From: Bodo saltans
Taxonomy: Eukaryota > Euglenozoa > Kinetoplastea > Eubodonida > Bodonidae
Assembly (NCBI GenBank): GCA_001460835.1
Contig: CYKH01001637.1
Location: 1 to 23,063 of the forward strand
Length of the DNA stretch: 23,063 bases
Direction of reading: 5' to 3'
The notes beneath the pieces were generated by a model. It was not told where the DNA came from. It worked only from the letters and a program-made list of their open reading frames with translations, and ran no database searches. Below are positions 7,566 to 23,063 of the stretch, in pieces. The position numbers and the translations under genes were made by a program. The first letter of the stretch is position 1. Each line of letters begins with the position of its first letter.

Positions 7566-8047
7566 CACAGTTTTTTTTTTCTTCTTTCGAAGAACAAAGA
7601 GAACTAGCACTCGACTCGAGTTAATGCTCGCCCCCACTCAAAACCCCATTTCTGTTTTGTTAAAGTACGTGTTGAGCCGTAAGGCTCAGGTGCAACGTTT
7701 CGTGAGCCTATTATTCCTGTTTCCTCGTTGTGCTGACGTAGAAGGACAAAACCCAATGTAAAGGCAAGTAATGGCAGAAGTACTGATTTTGCGAGAAAAC
7801 AAAATAGTGCCAAGCAACGCAGCTGAACAAGCATAGCCGGCACGGCGTTTTTGCTCGACGTGTATCTCGATGCACGTAGTGTAAAAGTCTGTACAACAAA
7901 ACAAACAAACAAATGAAAAAAGGAACCTCATTCATCGTAACACAATTTTTTAGTTTATTTTTTCATCCTGCTTTTTTTTTCTTTTTTTTTGCAACTGCTG
8001 GACCATCAAGGATTGGGGCGGATCGGCTTGTTACTTGCGAACGTAAC
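7566..8047. other. Intergenic region, no gene seen
   Basis: It has a T10 run at 7571-7580, an ACAA-type repeat near 7896-7913 and two T9 runs (7972-7980, 7982-7990). Frames crossing it begin or run through the homopolymers and are not credible. It contains the 3' UTR of the upstream gene and the acceptor region of the next. Confidence 0.6.
7972..8010 (+). promoter_or_regulatory. Trans-splice acceptor for the gene at 8048
   Basis: Two T9 runs separated by C are followed by the first AG at 8009-8010. The next ATG is 8048, just before the membrane anchor. Confidence 0.7.
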
Positions 8048-9491
8048 ATGATACACCCGCGTTTGAGAGTGAAGTTTGTCATCGCGATTTGTGTTCTGTC
8101 TTTTTATTTTGGACTTTCGAAATTCTCCGAGTCATCTCTAACGCTTAGACAGCTTCGTCTTAGTCCTGAGTCGACTCCGAACGAGCCAAACTCCACCAAT
8201 GCAAATTTCATCGAGTCAAACTCCGCCAAGCCAAACTCCATCGAGTCAAACTCCACCGAGCCGAGCTACAATGTGCTTCCGATTGCGGATACCGAGGCTG
8301 ACGCAGTGACGTGGCAACTGGCCAACCAAGCGCTACCCGTTCCAAAGCGCGCAAGCGAGGGTACTAAACTCTTGCCTTACGAACGAGAGCTTCTGGAGGG
8401 CTTCCCACCAGCAAAACTGGGGTTACAAATTCATCGACCCACTCACAGCACAGATGTTCATCATCGGCGGCATCAAATCGCCGTCGTTTTCTTTGGATTG
8501 GTGAAGAAAGTGGTTGCTCCACAGTTTGCCGCATTTCGAGATTTCGTCGCGGCGCCATTGCTGAGTGCTGGTGAGGTCGACGTGTTTCTCCATACATTCG
8601 AGGAGAGCAACTTTTCAAACCCTCGCAACGGTGAGAAGTCACAGATCATCAATCAAAGCAAGAGCATTGGTCTGTTGCGGAACGCGTTTTCTGGTGCGAG
8701 ACGATTCAATGTTGCTGTCAGCGAGTCGAAAGAGGCGCACGATTTTTTTTGGTCCGACGGAGCGCTACACCCGCAACGGGAATCCATGGGGGCGCGACGG
8801 AAGTCTTAGCACACACTACTTGCTTCGACAACATTACAGCATGATTCGAGCGACTGAAATGTGGACCGGCACAAACTACCGGTCTCACTACTCGCCCCAA
8901 GAAAAACACCAGAACAATGAAACAACAACACATGTGTTTCTCCCCAATAGTAAGTATTCGTGCGTGCTGTACATCCGGCCGGACATGTTTTCTGAAACGC
9001 CGATCGCAGCTGAGACGATACGCGCCATGTGCAGACATGATAACGATGGCCACCGGGAACTTTCTGTTCCAAACCTTGAGTGGGAAGGAATTTATGATCG
9101 CGCTGCGTTTGGCACCCCAGAGGCGATGTTGTTGTACGGACTGCGTGGGTTACGTCTGCGGGCATTTATTGATGGCGGTGGACATGTCAGCGCAGAACCG
9201 TATCTGTTTCGCTATTTATGCGAAAACGAAGTTGTGATTCACATTGCCCCTTGGATGCTAAGGAGAATACGAGCTGATGGGAGCATAGAAGGACGAGATA
9301 TCAACAAAGCAATCCTCTCCGACCGATTCGTGCTATTCACTGACTTGTGGCGCGACCTACAGCTTCGTCAGCATTCAAAGTATTCAAAGGTGAACAAAAC
9401 GAAACATTCAGGGAGTGAAAAAATGCGAGGTTGTTTACCGCGAGCTCTTTGGGGCCTCCCGCACGTCACGAGCGACGCAGTGAAATCTTAA
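8048..9491 (+). CDS. Type II membrane glycosyltransferase-like protein, interrupted by a 1-nt frameshift
   Basis: ATG 8048 is the first ATG after the acceptor AG at 8009-8010. The protein opens with a short basic tail, then a hydrophobic segment (VKFVIAICVLSFYFGLSKF, about residues 8-26), then a stalk made of seven 15-bp repeats. The globular part starts near RHQIAVVFFGLVKK and EVDVFLHTFEES. This frame ends at 8809, but the continuing protein lies in the +1 frame from the T8 run at 8743-8750 (RNGNPWGRDGSLSTHYLLRQ, then CVLYIRPDMFSE, then YDRAAFGTPEAMLLYGLR, then SAEPYLFRYL) and ends with TAA at 9491. One T fewer would give about 480 residues. Patterns of the type FFGL, DVFLHTF, VLYIRPD and FGTP occur, as I recall, in glycosyltransferase-like luminal proteins of protists; the enzyme assignment is inference. 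The break may be a homopolymer sequencing error, a young pseudogene, or, less likely, programmed frameshifting. Confidence 0.7.
8168..8272 (+). repeat. Seven-unit 15-bp tandem repeat in stalk region
   Basis: Seven consecutive 15-base units, best seen as GAGTCAAACTCCATC-like variants, begin at 8168, 8183, 8198, 8213, 8228, 8243 and 8258. They encode degenerate five-residue units (ESTPN, EPNST, NANFI, ESNSA, KPNSI, ESNST, EPSYN). Two of them create N-S-T sequons, consistent with a glycosylated luminal stalk just after the membrane anchor. The unit is a multiple of three, so copy-number change keeps the frame. Confidence 0.9.
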
Positions 9492-10784: not shown

Positions 10785-11117
10785 GAATTGCAAAAAAAAA
10801 AAACAGTAAGAAAGAAATGGAGAACCCCAACCTTCGTTGCGTGAGAATCATTCTATTTTGGATTCTGTCAAAGATGATGCCTTCTTTGCGAATGAAAAAC
10901 GTGCGCGCTGTCCTGTTGTGTGCTGTTGAACCTTCTTGTTCTATTGACATTTTCTTATGCAGAAGGTAAACACACTCAGTATTTAGTTGGGCAACGCAAA
11001 TTCGGCAACTTCTCTCGTGGGAGAGGTCCAACAAACTTGAAAAGAGTCCCCCGTTACCCGAACATCGACGCCGCTGACGGAGGTGCATATCAACTACTTC
11101 TTTTGTGTCTCTATACG
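10785..11117. other. Intergenic region plus 5' UTR of the SGNH-like gene
   Basis: An A12 run follows the stop of the small gene. The part after the AG at 10961-10962 is probably a 5' UTR of about 155 bases with no ATG, although it happens to be open in the frame of the downstream gene. No gene seen. Confidence 0.6.
10931..10962 (+). promoter_or_regulatory. Trans-splice acceptor for the SGNH-like gene
   Basis: The tract CCTTCTTGTTCTATTGACATTTTCTTATGCAG (given as separate pieces: CCTTCTTGTTCTATTG, then TTTTCTTATGCAG) ends in AG at 10961-10962. No ATG occurs before 11118. Confidence 0.6.
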
Positions 11118-13685
11118 ATGATCAATAACGCACCTTCACGGAAGGCTATGCTCGTGCTTGTCACACTGGTGCTTTGCCTCTTTTTCATCTCCAATTGGAG
11201 TTCCCGCGAGGACCGGCGTTTGCAAGTCGTCGTTGACAACAACAACAACAACAACAGCAGTTTGGTGGACCTCCCGCGAGCCCTCACTACGATGATCCAC
11301 TGGAGGGAATTTCGCTGGTCTGGTGGTGGTGTGAGAGGCGCCACCGAAGGAGAGGAGAATATGAACCTTGACACAAAGATTCACAGGACTACAGTAGAAT
11401 TTTTTGAGAAGTCCTTTGGCATACCGGCTGCATCGTTTGAGTCGTTACAAAAATTGAACTACACACGGCACAAACATTCCACATTTGTCAAATTCTTTAC
11501 TTCCAACGTCACTTTGAACACGAACCCTGACTGTGCAGACCGTTTGCATCCAAGCTATCAACTTTTGTGCCATGTGTGGGCTGCGCAGCAGCACCATCGT
11601 AGTAGTAGCACTAGCAGCAGCAGCAGCACCACCAGAAATAGCACTGACTCTTCTTCATCCTATTCATCATTGTTCAAGCGGAATGCGTTGAATTCCATGT
11701 GCAGTTTATTTCTCGCGTGTTCTGAGTGGAAGCGCGGCCGATACAATGTCCCTTTGTCTTCAACATTGCTTCGCAGTACATTCGATGAGATCTTGAACGA
11801 CCACGAGCTCTTGAACGCCTCTCAAGTGCTCCTCCGCAACTTGATTCACGGCGGAAATAACTGGCATGAGTACAACTGGCTTGCAGATCGTGTTAATACA
11901 TCTCGCGGGCTTTTAGAGAGCCGTAAGAGCCCTCAAGAAAGTATGGACGTCCGAACAGCCTTCCAGGGTGGCGAAATCACCACCAAGAAAGTTTTTGCCA
12001 ACGGGACTGTTTCGCTACTGTTTTCGTCGAGGGGCAACGGAGCGAGGGGCCCCCACCTCACCCGGCCATTATCAGCACTCGAAACGATTGCGGTGCTCCA
12101 CCACAGAGCGACGTCAGGAATGCCACAGATGGTTGTGTTCCCTGAACGCGCTGAAAGGGTTGTATCGCCCGGTGACTTCGTTGAGTGCCGTGTGCCTGCA
12201 ATTAATGTGCTACTTTTCAGTGGCGACAGTCTCGCCAATCAGATGTTTATGCGGCTTCTCAACCTCGTCCGACGTGGCCCGCAGGGACGAGTGCTGGTTC
12301 CGTACGGGTCGGAACTCTTGAAGTCCAACTTCCGCCATTGGCCAATGCACGATCGGTGCAGATCCCTCGATTTAATTTTGGCCTTTTACCCCACGCATGA
12401 TGAGTTTCTTACATTTCAGTCGCTAATGCCGTACGGTGTGCTGGTGAACGACCAGTTTGTCCGTTCTAACGAGTCTGTGACTGCGTATTTCGCTGCTGTT
12501 GCCAAACGCAGAGCTACTAGCTTCTGCAATCAGTCGAAACCTGCAAGCGGTGCCTCTCTTGAGGAACACGACGACACAGGAGTAGCTTTGTTCTACCTCG
12601 TGTTTTTGGCGGATGCAATCACGTCAAGGCCAAGAACAGACGCGCTAGCACCCTGTCTCCCCGCTCAACCAATTCCTGAAAAATTTCCACCAGATGGTCC
12701 AAATTATCAGAAAATGAAAAACGCTGTATCGAGAGGCTTGACTCTTGTTCACGACCCCCCTGTGCCGTCACTTCGTTCACTGGGCGTGCGTATTCCAATG
12801 CATGTGGTGAACTCGAATATGTGGGAGGTGCATGAGTCGTCCACCACGTACGAGTGGCTGATGCGCATGGCCACCGGTAACTGCAGCGTGACGGCGAACG
12901 CGACGAATGTCACAGCGGTGGCGCCACTCCTCCCGAGAGAAAAAACTGCTGACTGGAGATTCGGCGAGCATCCTTCTTCCGATGTGACGCATCTTTATCG
13001 CACGTCGACGAACTTGTGGTTTCCAGATCGAGCCGTAGGCCGACGACGTCACGCTCTCAAGGCGCCCATCAAACCGTCACGCCGAGCCAAACCATTTTCA
13101 GTACTCTCCCCAACGGAACCTCGAGAGTTGGTTCGGTTGGAGACACCTTTCAGGTGGCTGCACGATGCAGTTACAGCCGTCACCGGATCTGATCCTCTTC
13201 AACAATCGATTCAGAATTCTAACCAAAACACTGAAGGCAAGCACGACCATCGCAACGGTGTTTTTTTTTCGCGGTTGCGGGTGCTGGATATGGGAAAAGT
13301 TTTCTTGGCGACCGGGAACGTATTTCATCAAAAAGACGGGCTACATGAACGTTGTAGCGGACTTCACTGGCTCGTCGGTGCGGCCTCGTACCACGACACG
13401 TCGCGTGCATTGCGCACCTCTGCGGAGAGATTAACACGCGAGGTTTTTCAGATTTCGCCAGAACCTACGGATCACTCTGAGATCGAACGCGTTCCTCTTC
13501 GTTTTGACAATACTGACGACTGCCATGGTTTTGGAACGCTGCTGACATTAAATGCTTTGCTACTAGATATCGTTCAGGCAGCGAATGAGATATCGTTCAG
13601 GCAGCGAATGAGAGTTGAGTCACTGCACTCGGCAAAGGGGATTAGCACGAACTGTGCGCCGCACCTCCCAATACACAGATGCTAG
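11118..13685 (+). CDS. Type II membrane SGNH/PC-esterase-like protein
   Basis: 855 codons from ATG 11118. The frame is open further upstream but has no ATG there; 11118 is the first ATG after the acceptor AG at 10961-10962. A short basic tail is followed by a membrane anchor (MLVLVTLVLCLFFISNW, residues 11-27), an Asn6 run (41-46), a Ser-rich insert (about 162-182) and a large luminal domain with several N-x-S/T sequons. SGNH hydrolase landmarks occur in the right order: NVLLFSGDSLANQ (block I, Ser371), HVVNSNMWEV (block III Asn region, about 562-571) and HQKDGLHERC (block V, Asp740 and His743). This order is characteristic of the PC-esterase/NXPE/CASD1/TBL group, many of which move O-acetyl groups on glycans, so a Golgi or surface glycan acyltransferase or esterase is likely but inferred. 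The last 30 residues are probably secondary: a 23-bp duplication shifts the frame past an older stop (13616-13618). Confidence 0.75.
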   Translation: MINNAPSRKAMLVLVTLVLCLFFISNWSSREDRRLQVVVDNNNNNNSSLVDLPRALTTMIHWREFRWSGGGVRGATEGEENMNLDTKIHRTTVEFFEKSFGIPAASFESLQKLNYTRHKHSTFVKFFTSNVTLNTNPDCADRLHPSYQLLCHVWAAQQHHRSSSTSSSSSTTRNSTDSSSSYSSLFKRNALNSMCSLFLACSEWKRGRYNVPLSSTLLRSTFDEILNDHELLNASQVLLRNLIHGGNNWHEYNWLADRVNTSRGLLESRKSPQESMDVRTAFQGGEITTKKVFANGTVSLLFSSRGNGARGPHLTRPLSALETIAVLHHRATSGMPQMVVFPERAERVVSPGDFVECRVPAINVLLFSGDSLANQMFMRLLNLVRRGPQGRVLVPYGSELLKSNFRHWPMHDRCRSLDLILAFYPTHDEFLTFQSLMPYGVLVNDQFVRSNESVTAYFAAVAKRRATSFCNQSKPASGASLEEHDDTGVALFYLVFLADAITSRPRTDALAPCLPAQPIPEKFPPDGPNYQKMKNAVSRGLTLVHDPPVPSLRSLGVRIPMHVVNSNMWEVHESSTTYEWLMRMATGNCSVTANATNVTAVAPLLPREKTADWRFGEHPSSDVTHLYRTSTNLWFPDRAVGRRRHALKAPIKPSRRAKPFSVLSPTEPRELVRLETPFRWLHDAVTAVTGSDPLQQSIQNSNQNTEGKHDHRNGVFFSRLRVLDMGKVFLATGNVFHQKDGLHERCSGLHWLVGAASYHDTSRALRTSAERLTREVFQISPEPTDHSEIERVPLRFDNTDDCHGFGTLLTLNALLLDIVQAANEISFRQRMRVESLHSAKGISTNCAPHLPIHRC
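11238..11255 (+). repeat. (AAC)6 trinucleotide run, Asn6
   Basis: Six AAC codons in a row encode Asn6 just after the membrane anchor of the SGNH-like protein. It is a pure trinucleotide run in frame. Confidence 0.9.
13566..13611 (+). repeat. 23-bp perfect tandem duplication
   Basis: The 23 bases at 13566-13588 are repeated exactly at 13589-13611. Because 23 is not a multiple of three, the second copy is read in another frame. The first copy reads DIVQAAN; in the original phase the second copy would read the same, followed by GAG AGT TGA (stop at 13616-13618). Confidence 0.95.
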
Positions 13686-20388: not shown

Positions 20389-20791
20389 AAGGCGGCCGAA
20401 CGCAGAGGAGGATAAGAAATCAACCACCAGCAACGACACAGTCATGCATACAATTCTCAATGTGAACTCTGTTCGTTCTCAACCGTTTTGTGATTCCTTA
20501 GATCTCAAAAACTATATTATTGAGGCTTATCGGATGCCTGCTGCTAATCTTTATCGTTGTTGAACTTTCCTTGAGTTTTTTCCCTTGCTGAACGAACTCT
20601 CCAACAACTGAAAACGGTGTGCGGCAACAGTGTACATTACCTCCGTGAGCTCTGGAGTTTGCGATTCCTTACGATTATCTCCCATTTTTATTTTATTTGT
20701 AACAATTGTGAAGGTTGGTACCTTCTCCTTATCCTTTTTTTTTGTTTCGCGACACACACAACATGAACAAACGAACTAGCCTCAACAACCA
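20389..20791. other. Intergenic region, no gene seen
   Basis: It probably holds the 3' UTR of the TTLL1-type gene, then a T-rich acceptor tract. A 39-codon frame from ATG 20763 to TGA 20882 overlaps the next gene in another frame and is not considered a gene. Confidence 0.6.
20722..20779 (+). promoter_or_regulatory. Trans-splice acceptor for the duplicated-module gene
   Basis: A CT/T tract (about 20722-20746) is followed by the first AG at 20778-20779, 12 bases before ATG 20792. The out-of-frame ATG at 20763 lies between tract and AG and would be spliced away. Confidence 0.65.
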
Positions 20792-23063
20792 ATGTCCCGT
20801 TGCCGTGCGGTTGGGCTGTTATGCCTTGTCGGTGTTTGCAGTATTCTTCTTCTTACCGTGTTGCAAGATTCTCCGGTTGTGACTTACGAAAAAATTGAGC
20901 CACAAGCCAGAGGGAGAGAGTTTTGTCGGCAAGACACAGACCACCCACATGTTGCGAGAGGCTCGCATGACAGTGCAGCTCAGTTGCAAGTGTCCTCAAG
21001 GAACAACGCGACGGGGCAGGCAAGTAGAACCAATGTCCTCAGGAATGAGGAGCTCCGGAATCTGCTGCATGACAAGCTCCCACACTCGAATGGAGGAGAC
21101 ACGGTGGAATCGACGGAAAATAACAACAACAAGAAGCACGTCGTCCCGCAGCATGTCGTCGTTCCTCCTCGCATCGCACCTTCGACGATATCCAAACAGG
21201 CAAATAGAACTGAAGACCGCCGCCCTCCTGTGCTGCGTGATGGGGAGGTCCCAGAAGAAGAAGATTCCGAACGAGACATTTTCACCGAGGTGGTTGCAGC
21301 AAATCGGAAGGACGGCCCACTGCTTTGTAGCACTACATGGCATCCGTCTCCCGCTGATCCTGATGATCTTGACGCCAAGCACAACCGGCAAGGCTGCCAT
21401 CATCGCCAGTCGATCTCATGCACCGGCAAGCGACTTGGGCGTGCGATTGTCATCTACATGCTTCAGACGAAAAATATTCGCGAGATGAACGTGGAGATGC
21501 AAAACTTTAACTATTTCATGAACGTTGGCGTGTTTGGCGAGCACGAGCGGACAGAGATGTTCGAGGGAGTCGACTACATTTTCACACGCATGATGCCCCG
21601 TCACCTTGGAAAAGTCGCTGTGCCGACGATCATCGCGGAGAAGGGGAACATCAAGCTCATGTGGGTTCCGCCGGGGCCCTGCGACCTCTGCGCCCACGGA
21701 CGTGTGATTACCCATCTAGGCGGCGTGGACGCTGTGAAGGCGAACTACTCGTTTATCGTGTTGCTGAACGGAGGTGCGCGCGGTCCTTTCCAGGCAGCGA
21801 ACGACGCGACCTGGATCGACGTGATGGCGATTGGAGGCCAGGCGACGTGGTCCGAGTCCACACCCCCGATCATGGTTGGTCCAAGTGTGAGCACTCAGTT
21901 TTCAGTGCACGTGCAGACGCACACAATTGCCCTGCACACCCGACACCTTGCGCAGTATTTTCCGTTTCTTACTCAGTGCTCCAATGCGTCCAATGGGAAA
22001 GCGATGTGCATTCGTGGCGGTGAAGTTCCTGCGGGGATCGCGTGGCTGAGAGGCGGCGGCTGGATTCATGGGTTGCTTGCAAATGTCACGCTGCGCAGCC
22101 CTGCAGATGCGGACGCTCTGGCACAGACTCATAAGGAGACTAACATTGTTGAGCCAATGAAGGAGCATTATGACTTGTGCTCTGCGCTCTTCACCAAGTT
22201 TGGTGGGACGTTTACTAATGTCGTACGTCCGCGAACTGCTGTTCATGCGGCGCAGCTTATTGTGTTTCAGCCGATTAGTCGGGCCCTATCTGGACGTGCT
22301 CTGCTGCAGGAGCTGCTTGGCAACCACAACTTCATGGTCTTGGGTGATCAGCCTCAAGTCGTTCCACTGCGGAAAGACGAAGGTAAACGCAATCTCTCGT
22401 CGGAGCACATGATCACAATTGTGCATGCTTGGTACGGAGTCCAAGGTCGGATTGAGGACGACCACAATGGCCAAGTGGTTGAGCGCCTACGTGCGAACAT
22501 CGAGCAGAGCCAGGATGGTCGCCTCGTGGTGACGGGTAACCTGAACCATTTCTTTGGATTTGACCCCGCACCGAACGAGGCGAAGATAGCTGCCATTCAT
22601 CTTCGCTACAAGGGAAAGGATCATCACTTTCAGCTTTCGGAAGGACAGACGCTAGAATTCCCCAAAGCCGATGTCAAAGGTCACGACCGACTGCAGTGTA
22701 GCACTACGTGGCATCCATCCCCCGATGCACCAGATGAGGATCTTGATTTCAAGCACGATTACCAAGGCTGCCATCATCGCCAGTCGATCTCATGCACCGG
22801 AAAGCGACTCAGGCGTGCGCTTGTCATCTACATGCTTCAGACGAAAAATATTCGCGAGATGAATGTTGAGATGCAAAACTTTGACTATTTCATGAACAGT
22901 GGCGTGTTTGGAGAGCATGAATCGACCGAGATGTTCGAAGGGGTCGACTACATTTTCACGCGCATGACGCCCCGCCACCTTGGAAAAGTCGCTGTGCCGA
23001 CGGTCATCGCGGAGAAGGGGAACATCAAGCTGATGTGGGTGCCGCCCGGGCCCTGCGACCTCT
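20792..23063 (+). CDS. Large type II membrane protein with internally duplicated glycosyltransferase-like module (3' end outside window)
   Basis: 757 codons are open from ATG 20792 to the window edge without a stop. Residues about 5-22 form a membrane anchor (VGLLCLVGVCSILLLTV), followed by a hydrophilic, probably disordered stalk to about residue 175 with several N-x-S/T sequons. Module 1 starts at residue 179 (CSTTWHPSP) and contains CHHRQSISCTGKRLGRAIVI, VDYIFTRMMPRHLG, MWVPPGPCDLCAHGRV, YSFIVLLNGGARGPFQ and HVQTHTIALHTRHLAQYF. This order resembles a widespread uncharacterised glycosyltransferase-like family of protists and bacteria (from recall). Residues about 540-628 (ITIVHAWYGVQG, LVVTGNLNHFFGFDPAP, AAIHLRYKGKDHHFQLSEGQ) resemble DUF3395, the C-terminal domain of DNAJC11. 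Module 2 then restarts at residue 636 with the same CSTTWHPSP sequence and is cut by the window. The start follows from the acceptor AG at 20778-20779. Likely a Golgi or cell-surface protein; enzyme activity is inference. Confidence 0.8.
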   Translation, partial: MSRCRAVGLLCLVGVCSILLLTVLQDSPVVTYEKIEPQARGREFCRQDTDHPHVARGSHDSAAQLQVSSRNNATGQASRTNVLRNEELRNLLHDKLPHSNGGDTVESTENNNNKKHVVPQHVVVPPRIAPSTISKQANRTEDRRPPVLRDGEVPEEEDSERDIFTEVVAANRKDGPLLCSTTWHPSPADPDDLDAKHNRQGCHHRQSISCTGKRLGRAIVIYMLQTKNIREMNVEMQNFNYFMNVGVFGEHERTEMFEGVDYIFTRMMPRHLGKVAVPTIIAEKGNIKLMWVPPGPCDLCAHGRVITHLGGVDAVKANYSFIVLLNGGARGPFQAANDATWIDVMAIGGQATWSESTPPIMVGPSVSTQFSVHVQTHTIALHTRHLAQYFPFLTQCSNASNGKAMCIRGGEVPAGIAWLRGGGWIHGLLANVTLRSPADADALAQTHKETNIVEPMKEHYDLCSALFTKFGGTFTNVVRPRTAVHAAQLIVFQPISRALSGRALLQELLGNHNFMVLGDQPQVVPLRKDEGKRNLSSEHMITIVHAWYGVQGRIEDDHNGQVVERLRANIEQSQDGRLVVTGNLNHFFGFDPAPNEAKIAAIHLRYKGKDHHFQLSEGQTLEFPKADVKGHDRLQCSTTWHPSPDAPDEDLDFKHDYQGCHHRQSISCTGKRLRRALVIYMLQTKNIREMNVEMQNFDYFMNSGVFGEHESTEMFEGVDYIFTRMTPRHLGKVAVPTVIAEKGNIKLMWVPPGPCDL
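21326..23063 (+). repeat. Large in-frame internal duplication, period 1,371-1,374 bp
   Basis: The sequence beginning at 21326 recurs at 22697. One extra codon in copy 2 near 22730 raises the offset from 1,371 to 1,374. From 22763 to the window end I count about 24 base differences over about 300 aligned bases, giving about 7 differences in 100 residues. Copy 1 is complete (about 457 codons); copy 2 runs off the window. Many of the differences are at third codon positions. Confidence 0.93.

Follow-up and report, generated by a model that had tools for sequence, protein, structure and literature searches.

Some glycosyltransferases combine domains in a single chain, with a lectin domain in the GalNAc-transferases and a pair of catalytic domains in LARGE. 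DUF3395 (Pfam PF11875), whose name marks its function as unknown, is found at the C-terminus of DNAJC11, its best-known bearer, and of TbJ31, the homologue in the kinetoplastid T. brucei (PMC10432679, PMC4128653). A role in protein-protein interaction has been suggested for the domain in these proteins (PMC10432679, PMC4128653), and mutation of DNAJC11 in mice is linked to cristae disorganisation and motor neuron pathology (PMC4128653). Here we describe a frame of the kinetoplastid Bodo saltans that holds a DUF3395 domain (module D) between one full and one truncated copy of a module with a plausible glycosyltransferase fold (module M). The window analysed, 23,063 bases, is the entire contig C595, and the ATG-started frame (20792-23062, plus strand) is free of stops for 757 codons up to the contig end, as an earlier first-pass annotation, made from the sequence alone, had read it; its 3' end is thus the end of the assembly and not a stop codon. 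That annotation also proposed an N-terminal membrane anchor, and indeed hydropathy peaks at residues 6-24 (2.76 over 19 residues), probably a type II signal anchor, or a signal peptide.

A Pfam scan of the whole protein at E <= 10 returned a single match, PF11875 at residues 542-624, in agreement with the DUF3395-like segment predicted at about 540-628. When isolated, D scores 27.6 bits (28.0 for a shorter cut) against a cut-off of 27.1, and none of ten shuffled controls matched; the score falls below the cut-off on the 757-residue protein (22.3 bits) and in a six-frame genome search (26.1 bits). The match spans profile positions 42/43 to 132 of 132, hence part of the profile, and the only other Pfam match of the isolated domain is a weak one to DUF218. 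Across the B. saltans genome (29.3 Mb in 934 contigs), nine of ten D copies match PF11875 at E <= 1, as do 11 of 14 at E <= 10 with bacterial modules added. Judged by the Pfam cut-off with the domain taken alone, D is DUF3395. Comparison with DNAJC11 and TbJ31 ends there: the window protein is anchored, carries M modules, has D internally rather than at the C-terminus, and yielded no J or J-like domain in Pfam at E <= 10. The window is the sole PF11875 match at E <= 0.001 in the six-frame search, where no TbJ31-like gene was seen at this threshold; such a gene could still exist.

The premise that DUF3395 is otherwise confined to mitochondrial proteins of the DNAJC11 type proved too narrow: D homologues occur in two plasmid-encoded bacterial proteins that show signs of export, and both score below the Pfam cut-off. 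With the window D, tblastn gave a row for a Streptomyces plasmid protein at E 5 (Streptomyces sp. NBC_01401, NZ_CP109536.1, L053:2161-4551), in which a PF11875-like stretch reaches 24.7 bits, and hhalign of this stretch with the bodonid D profile gave 85.8% (E 5.4e-6). The protein has weak matches to a twin-arginine translocation signal, GH65 and kojibiose hydrolase, all below cut-offs, and adjoins a GH97 gene. The second, a hypothetical protein of Mitsuaria sp. 7 (plasmid NZ_CP011515.1, L055:3182-4231), has three tandem D-like modules and, by eye, an apparent signal peptide; it remains below cut-off with both PF11875 (17.5 bits) and SUEL_Lectin PF02140 (17.3 bits against 31.4, E 0.0063). Its D-like modules 1 and 2 are each followed by a Gly/Trp-rich stretch. 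Bacterial and bodonid D profiles align with 97% probability (E 6.5e-11). A typed-consensus query returned Streptomyces at E 3e-12 and Mitsuaria at E 7e-7, values that do not count as independent evidence, since the motif was in mind when the query was typed. These two rows were retained because Pfam or hhalign then matched them, and all other plasmid and phage rows for D, among them a phage row at E 1, were discarded as chance; the one discarded row that was inspected had no matching frame.

A protein search of the same genome recovered 17 matches, query included, which resolve into M (about 342 residues) and D (about 85 residues). M is borne by the window (one and a third copies), C102, C792 (two neighbouring genes), C807, C771, C594 and C553, and further by a C816 gene in two overlapping frames, a shorter C594 piece and a distant C594 relative. 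Of the ten D copies, six follow an M (the window, C102 and C807 with one each, C792 with three) and four have no M (one on C770, one on C17 and two on C514; that of C17 and one of those on C514 end short of the domain end). As each module occurs without the other, they are used separately, and M-D-M is one among several orders; the modular architecture suspected earlier is hence real, on the strength of these paralogues. By eye, the M-less D copies follow Pro/Gln/His-rich sequence (C514, L028 and L016), lie in a short frame (C770, L026) or follow a hydrophobic segment (C17, L029). One C792 gene (L020:3033-4832) is ordered M-D-D, a natural tandem of D behind a single M, with the two D copies as sisters in the tree (95/88), and the distant C594 relative (L023:2467-4758, 764 residues) joins an M of about 31% identity to a second domain, thus another partner of M.

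The window M is 71-78% identical to M of the other M-D genes, and the window D 49-53% to their D and 51-61% to M-less D. The M tree groups the window copies with C102 and C771 without resolving their order. Among the D copies, a 99/98 branch separates the window D from the five other copies behind M, and all six stand on one side of a 77/80 branch, in 72% of bootstrap trees. As a lead only, D may have been replaced, or joined to M more than once, or all six copies may go back to a single M-D fusion. No M or D relatives were found outside by pattern and tblastn in genome contigs or viral contigs, a weak negative considering the narrow patterns, and phage records held no match to M.

Within the window, 21361-21660 and 22735-23034 form a direct repeat of 90% identity, with a further 55 nucleotides at 80%. 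Of the second M copy, the window includes just the initial 124 of about 342 residues, and over these the copies are 88.7% identical as protein, with non-synonymous (dN) and synonymous (dS) divergence of 0.070 and 0.353 (dN/dS about 0.2), which points to purifying selection on M and to a duplication that is not very recent. No second D was seen. Of the repeated unit claimed at first pass, the repeat of M stands, and within the reach of the contig nothing but M is repeated.

The best structural matches for the M part of a structure model, itself poor and of low confidence, are GT-A enzymes in both VIA and Foldseek; 10-14 sequences were at hand for structure prediction of M and D. Nearest in Foldseek are Bogt6a and ABO synthases, which we take to be GT6 family members, with identities of mostly 5-12% among the matches listed. 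M had no match in PDB sequences (by sequence or profile), in Pfam (none of nine members) or in NCBIfam. Thus, structural comparison, and not sequence profiles, speaks for the glycosyltransferase-like segment of the first-pass annotation, and we regard a GT-A fold, with the glycosyltransferase label, as plausible from the model. Candidates set aside include four scorpion alpha-insect toxins, the PDB rows of the M profile (best E 0.057, discounted as chance), the best PHROGs row (E 0.019, likewise) and PF05045 (RgpF), suggested by an RGPF stretch and without matches in the B. saltans genome at E <= 1.

A resemblance of D to lectins, absent from the first-pass proposal, emerged from comparisons to all PDB sequences. 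With a joint bodonid and bacterial D profile, the top three rows are rhamnose-binding lectins (RBLs; E 4.5e-8, 1.2e-4 and 5.1e-3), followed by an oxidoreductase (E 0.12) and a latrophilin-like lectin domain (E 0.65); the same three lectins rank first with the bacterial profile alone. Lectins are also the top VIA rows for the predicted D structure. D carries AxYG and DPxxxxxK motifs that resemble those of RBL/SUEL lectins (PF02140; SUL-I, CSL3 and the latrophilin lectin domain), with AWYGV and DPAPN..K in place of YGR and DPC...KYL. By motif, Y548, N585, D591, N595 and K598 fall at the positions of Tyr, Asn, Asp, Gly and Lys in the lectin sugar site, so that Y, D and K are retained. A doubled D profile brought no gain in whole-sequence E (6.8e-8), and gave a single 22.4-bit stretch whose alignment spans the junction (independent E 9.4e-4); in one reading, the C-terminal hairpin of D may replace the first lectin strands, a circular offset.

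Aggregated, we give an even chance to the window protein being a kinetoplastid type II glycosyltransferase of the secretory pathway, built of anchor, stem, GT-A-like module, lectin-like DUF3395 and second GT-A-like module, with D holding the acceptor sugar for the flanking M modules. We thereby infer a luminal location, lectin activity of D and catalysis by M. The anchor would place the M and D modules in the lumen, D would hold a galactose- or rhamnose-like sugar of the growing acceptor glycan, and M1 and M2 would add further sugars near it. The closest parallels by working principle are the polypeptide GalNAc-transferases (GT-A with R-type lectin) and LARGE, where a type II anchor is combined with glycosyltransferase and lectin, or with two glycosyltransferase domains per chain, although the lectin of the GalNAc-transferases has another fold.

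Several observations weigh against this proposal, beginning with the lectin link. The bodonid D profile alone finds no lectin in PDB sequences, no RBL is present among the 50 Foldseek matches listed, and the E of 4.5e-8 was rejected as a basis: repeats add up in such values, and designed repeat proteins gave E 8.4e-5 even with a reversed control profile; the best independent E for a single stretch with the joint profile is 1.4. RBL/SUEL domains are defined by eight cysteines and four disulfides (PMC10817417), while no cysteine occurs between residues 463 and 636. The window D also has no PF02140 match and no counterpart of Glu7, nor YGR and DPC as such. Given this weak lectin match, D could instead be a protein-protein interaction or oligomerisation module that binds no sugar and tethers or dimerises a glycosyltransferase M, congruent with the interaction role suggested for DUF3395 of DNAJC11 and TbJ31 (PMC10432679, PMC4128653) and with D standing without M at four places. 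We consider this somewhat unlikely, as the conserved Y, D and K fall on sugar-site positions by motif, and, among the D homologues, one sits in a protein that weakly matches glycosidases and others form a tandem array. Judging from structure titles, latrophilin lectin domains have themselves been solved in protein complexes, and binding of sugar and of protein may thus coexist.

A further point against is the lack of a DXD motif among the 58 invariant columns of a nine-row M alignment, the D.D strings of the window lying elsewhere. GT-A enzymes carry DXD at the end of a strand where, in the M model, N326-G-G-A-R-G-P-F starts; the motif is not universal, and some GT-A enzymes act without it. 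With Asn in this position, M would be metal-independent, as Bogt6a is described in the titles of its structure entries, or inactive. The latter would hold in a surface adhesin, in which M, a degenerate glycosyltransferase fold, and D, a lectin, would jointly bind glycans of bacterial prey or substrate. A multi-copy family with varying modules in a presumed phagotroph would suit such a role, and bodonins have been proposed for prey attachment in B. saltans (PMC4728078). The 58 invariant columns and the dN/dS of the M copies fit a constrained enzyme as well, however, and we find the adhesin improbable.

The M-D-M order itself also has evidence against it. M copy 2 sits at the contig edge, in each of the four other genes that combine both modules the frame closes no more than a few residues after its last D, and C792 has two M-D-type genes in a row. 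This would be accounted for if M-D were the true unit and the M-D-M order had arisen close to the contig end, through a mis-join or through recent fusion of two adjacent genes. We deem it unlikely, since the interval from D to M2 contains neither a stop nor an in-frame ATG, and copies that differ at 11% of bases, with the dS and dN/dS given above, are not a single sequence read twice.

Returning to the proposed glycosyltransferase with a lectin-like D, its parts would belong to known fold families, whereas the GT-DUF3395-GT combination and the kinship of DUF3395 to lectins were not found described in open-licence papers. In the open-licence PubMed Central literature, where DUF3395 is named in five papers, we found no paper that has DUF3395 and glycosyltransferase together and no mention of PF11875, and to judge by their titles the five papers with both DNAJC11 and lectin are unrelated; in the main text of the B. 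saltans genome paper (PMC4728078), neither glycosyltransferase nor lectin was found as a word. A lectin-fold link would single out residues for testing both in this protein and in DNAJC11, and with the modular family a trypanosome relative would gain a set of candidate glycan-building enzymes not recognised before. Extending this, it is possible, if short of an even chance, that DUF3395, with the C-terminal domain of DNAJC11 among its members, is related to rhamnose/galactose lectins but cysteine-free and circularly offset: an old mobile glycan-handling module that the flagellate built into a hitherto undescribed GT-lectin-GT chain, with the mitochondrial use derived.

Features of the frame and its upstream region (all plus strand)
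Feature	Position	Residues	Basis or remark
Pyrimidine-rich tract and first AG downstream	20720..20779		Tract ~20720-20748, AG 20778-20779, 12 bases 5' of ATG; read from the letters
Open frame, ATG, reaches contig end	20792..23062	757 codons	Reading of frames; contig bounds
Hydrophobic segment	20807..20863	6-24	Hydropathy maximum; paralogue N-termini alike by eye
Stem, weakly conserved	20864..21319	25-176	39.9% identity to C102 over N-terminal 173 residues
Module M, copy 1	21320..22342	177-517	M alignment; structure model with VIA and Foldseek matches
Linker	22343..22414	518-541	Exceeds linker length of other M-D proteins
Module D, DUF3395 (PF11875), lectin-like	22415..22666	542-625	Pfam and profile comparisons
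Module M, copy 2, first 124 residues	22691..23062	634-757	Direct repeat, protein alignment; contig end cuts the rest

From general kinetoplastid biology, we take the AG upstream of the frame as a candidate spliced-leader acceptor. Other frames of the window, upstream of this one, match a pyridoxal phosphate (PLP) decarboxylase, an XRN-type nuclease and a tubulin-tyrosine-ligase-like protein in Pfam, and a frame open at the contig start (2-1156) approaches the trypanosome Tc-38 (p38) family with 21.1 bits against a cut-off of 23.2. The 921-residue frame at 10920-13685 has no match in Pfam at E <= 0.1 or NCBIfam at E <= 1; its stretch LLFSGDSLANQMFMRLL may suggest a GDSL-type esterase. Two overlapping frames, 7913-8809 and 8565-9491, gave no Pfam matches when searched apart as unmended pieces, and resemble a single gene split by a frameshift or sequencing error. 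Over 96 residues, the former shares 47% identity with the C-terminal region of the distant-M protein of C594.
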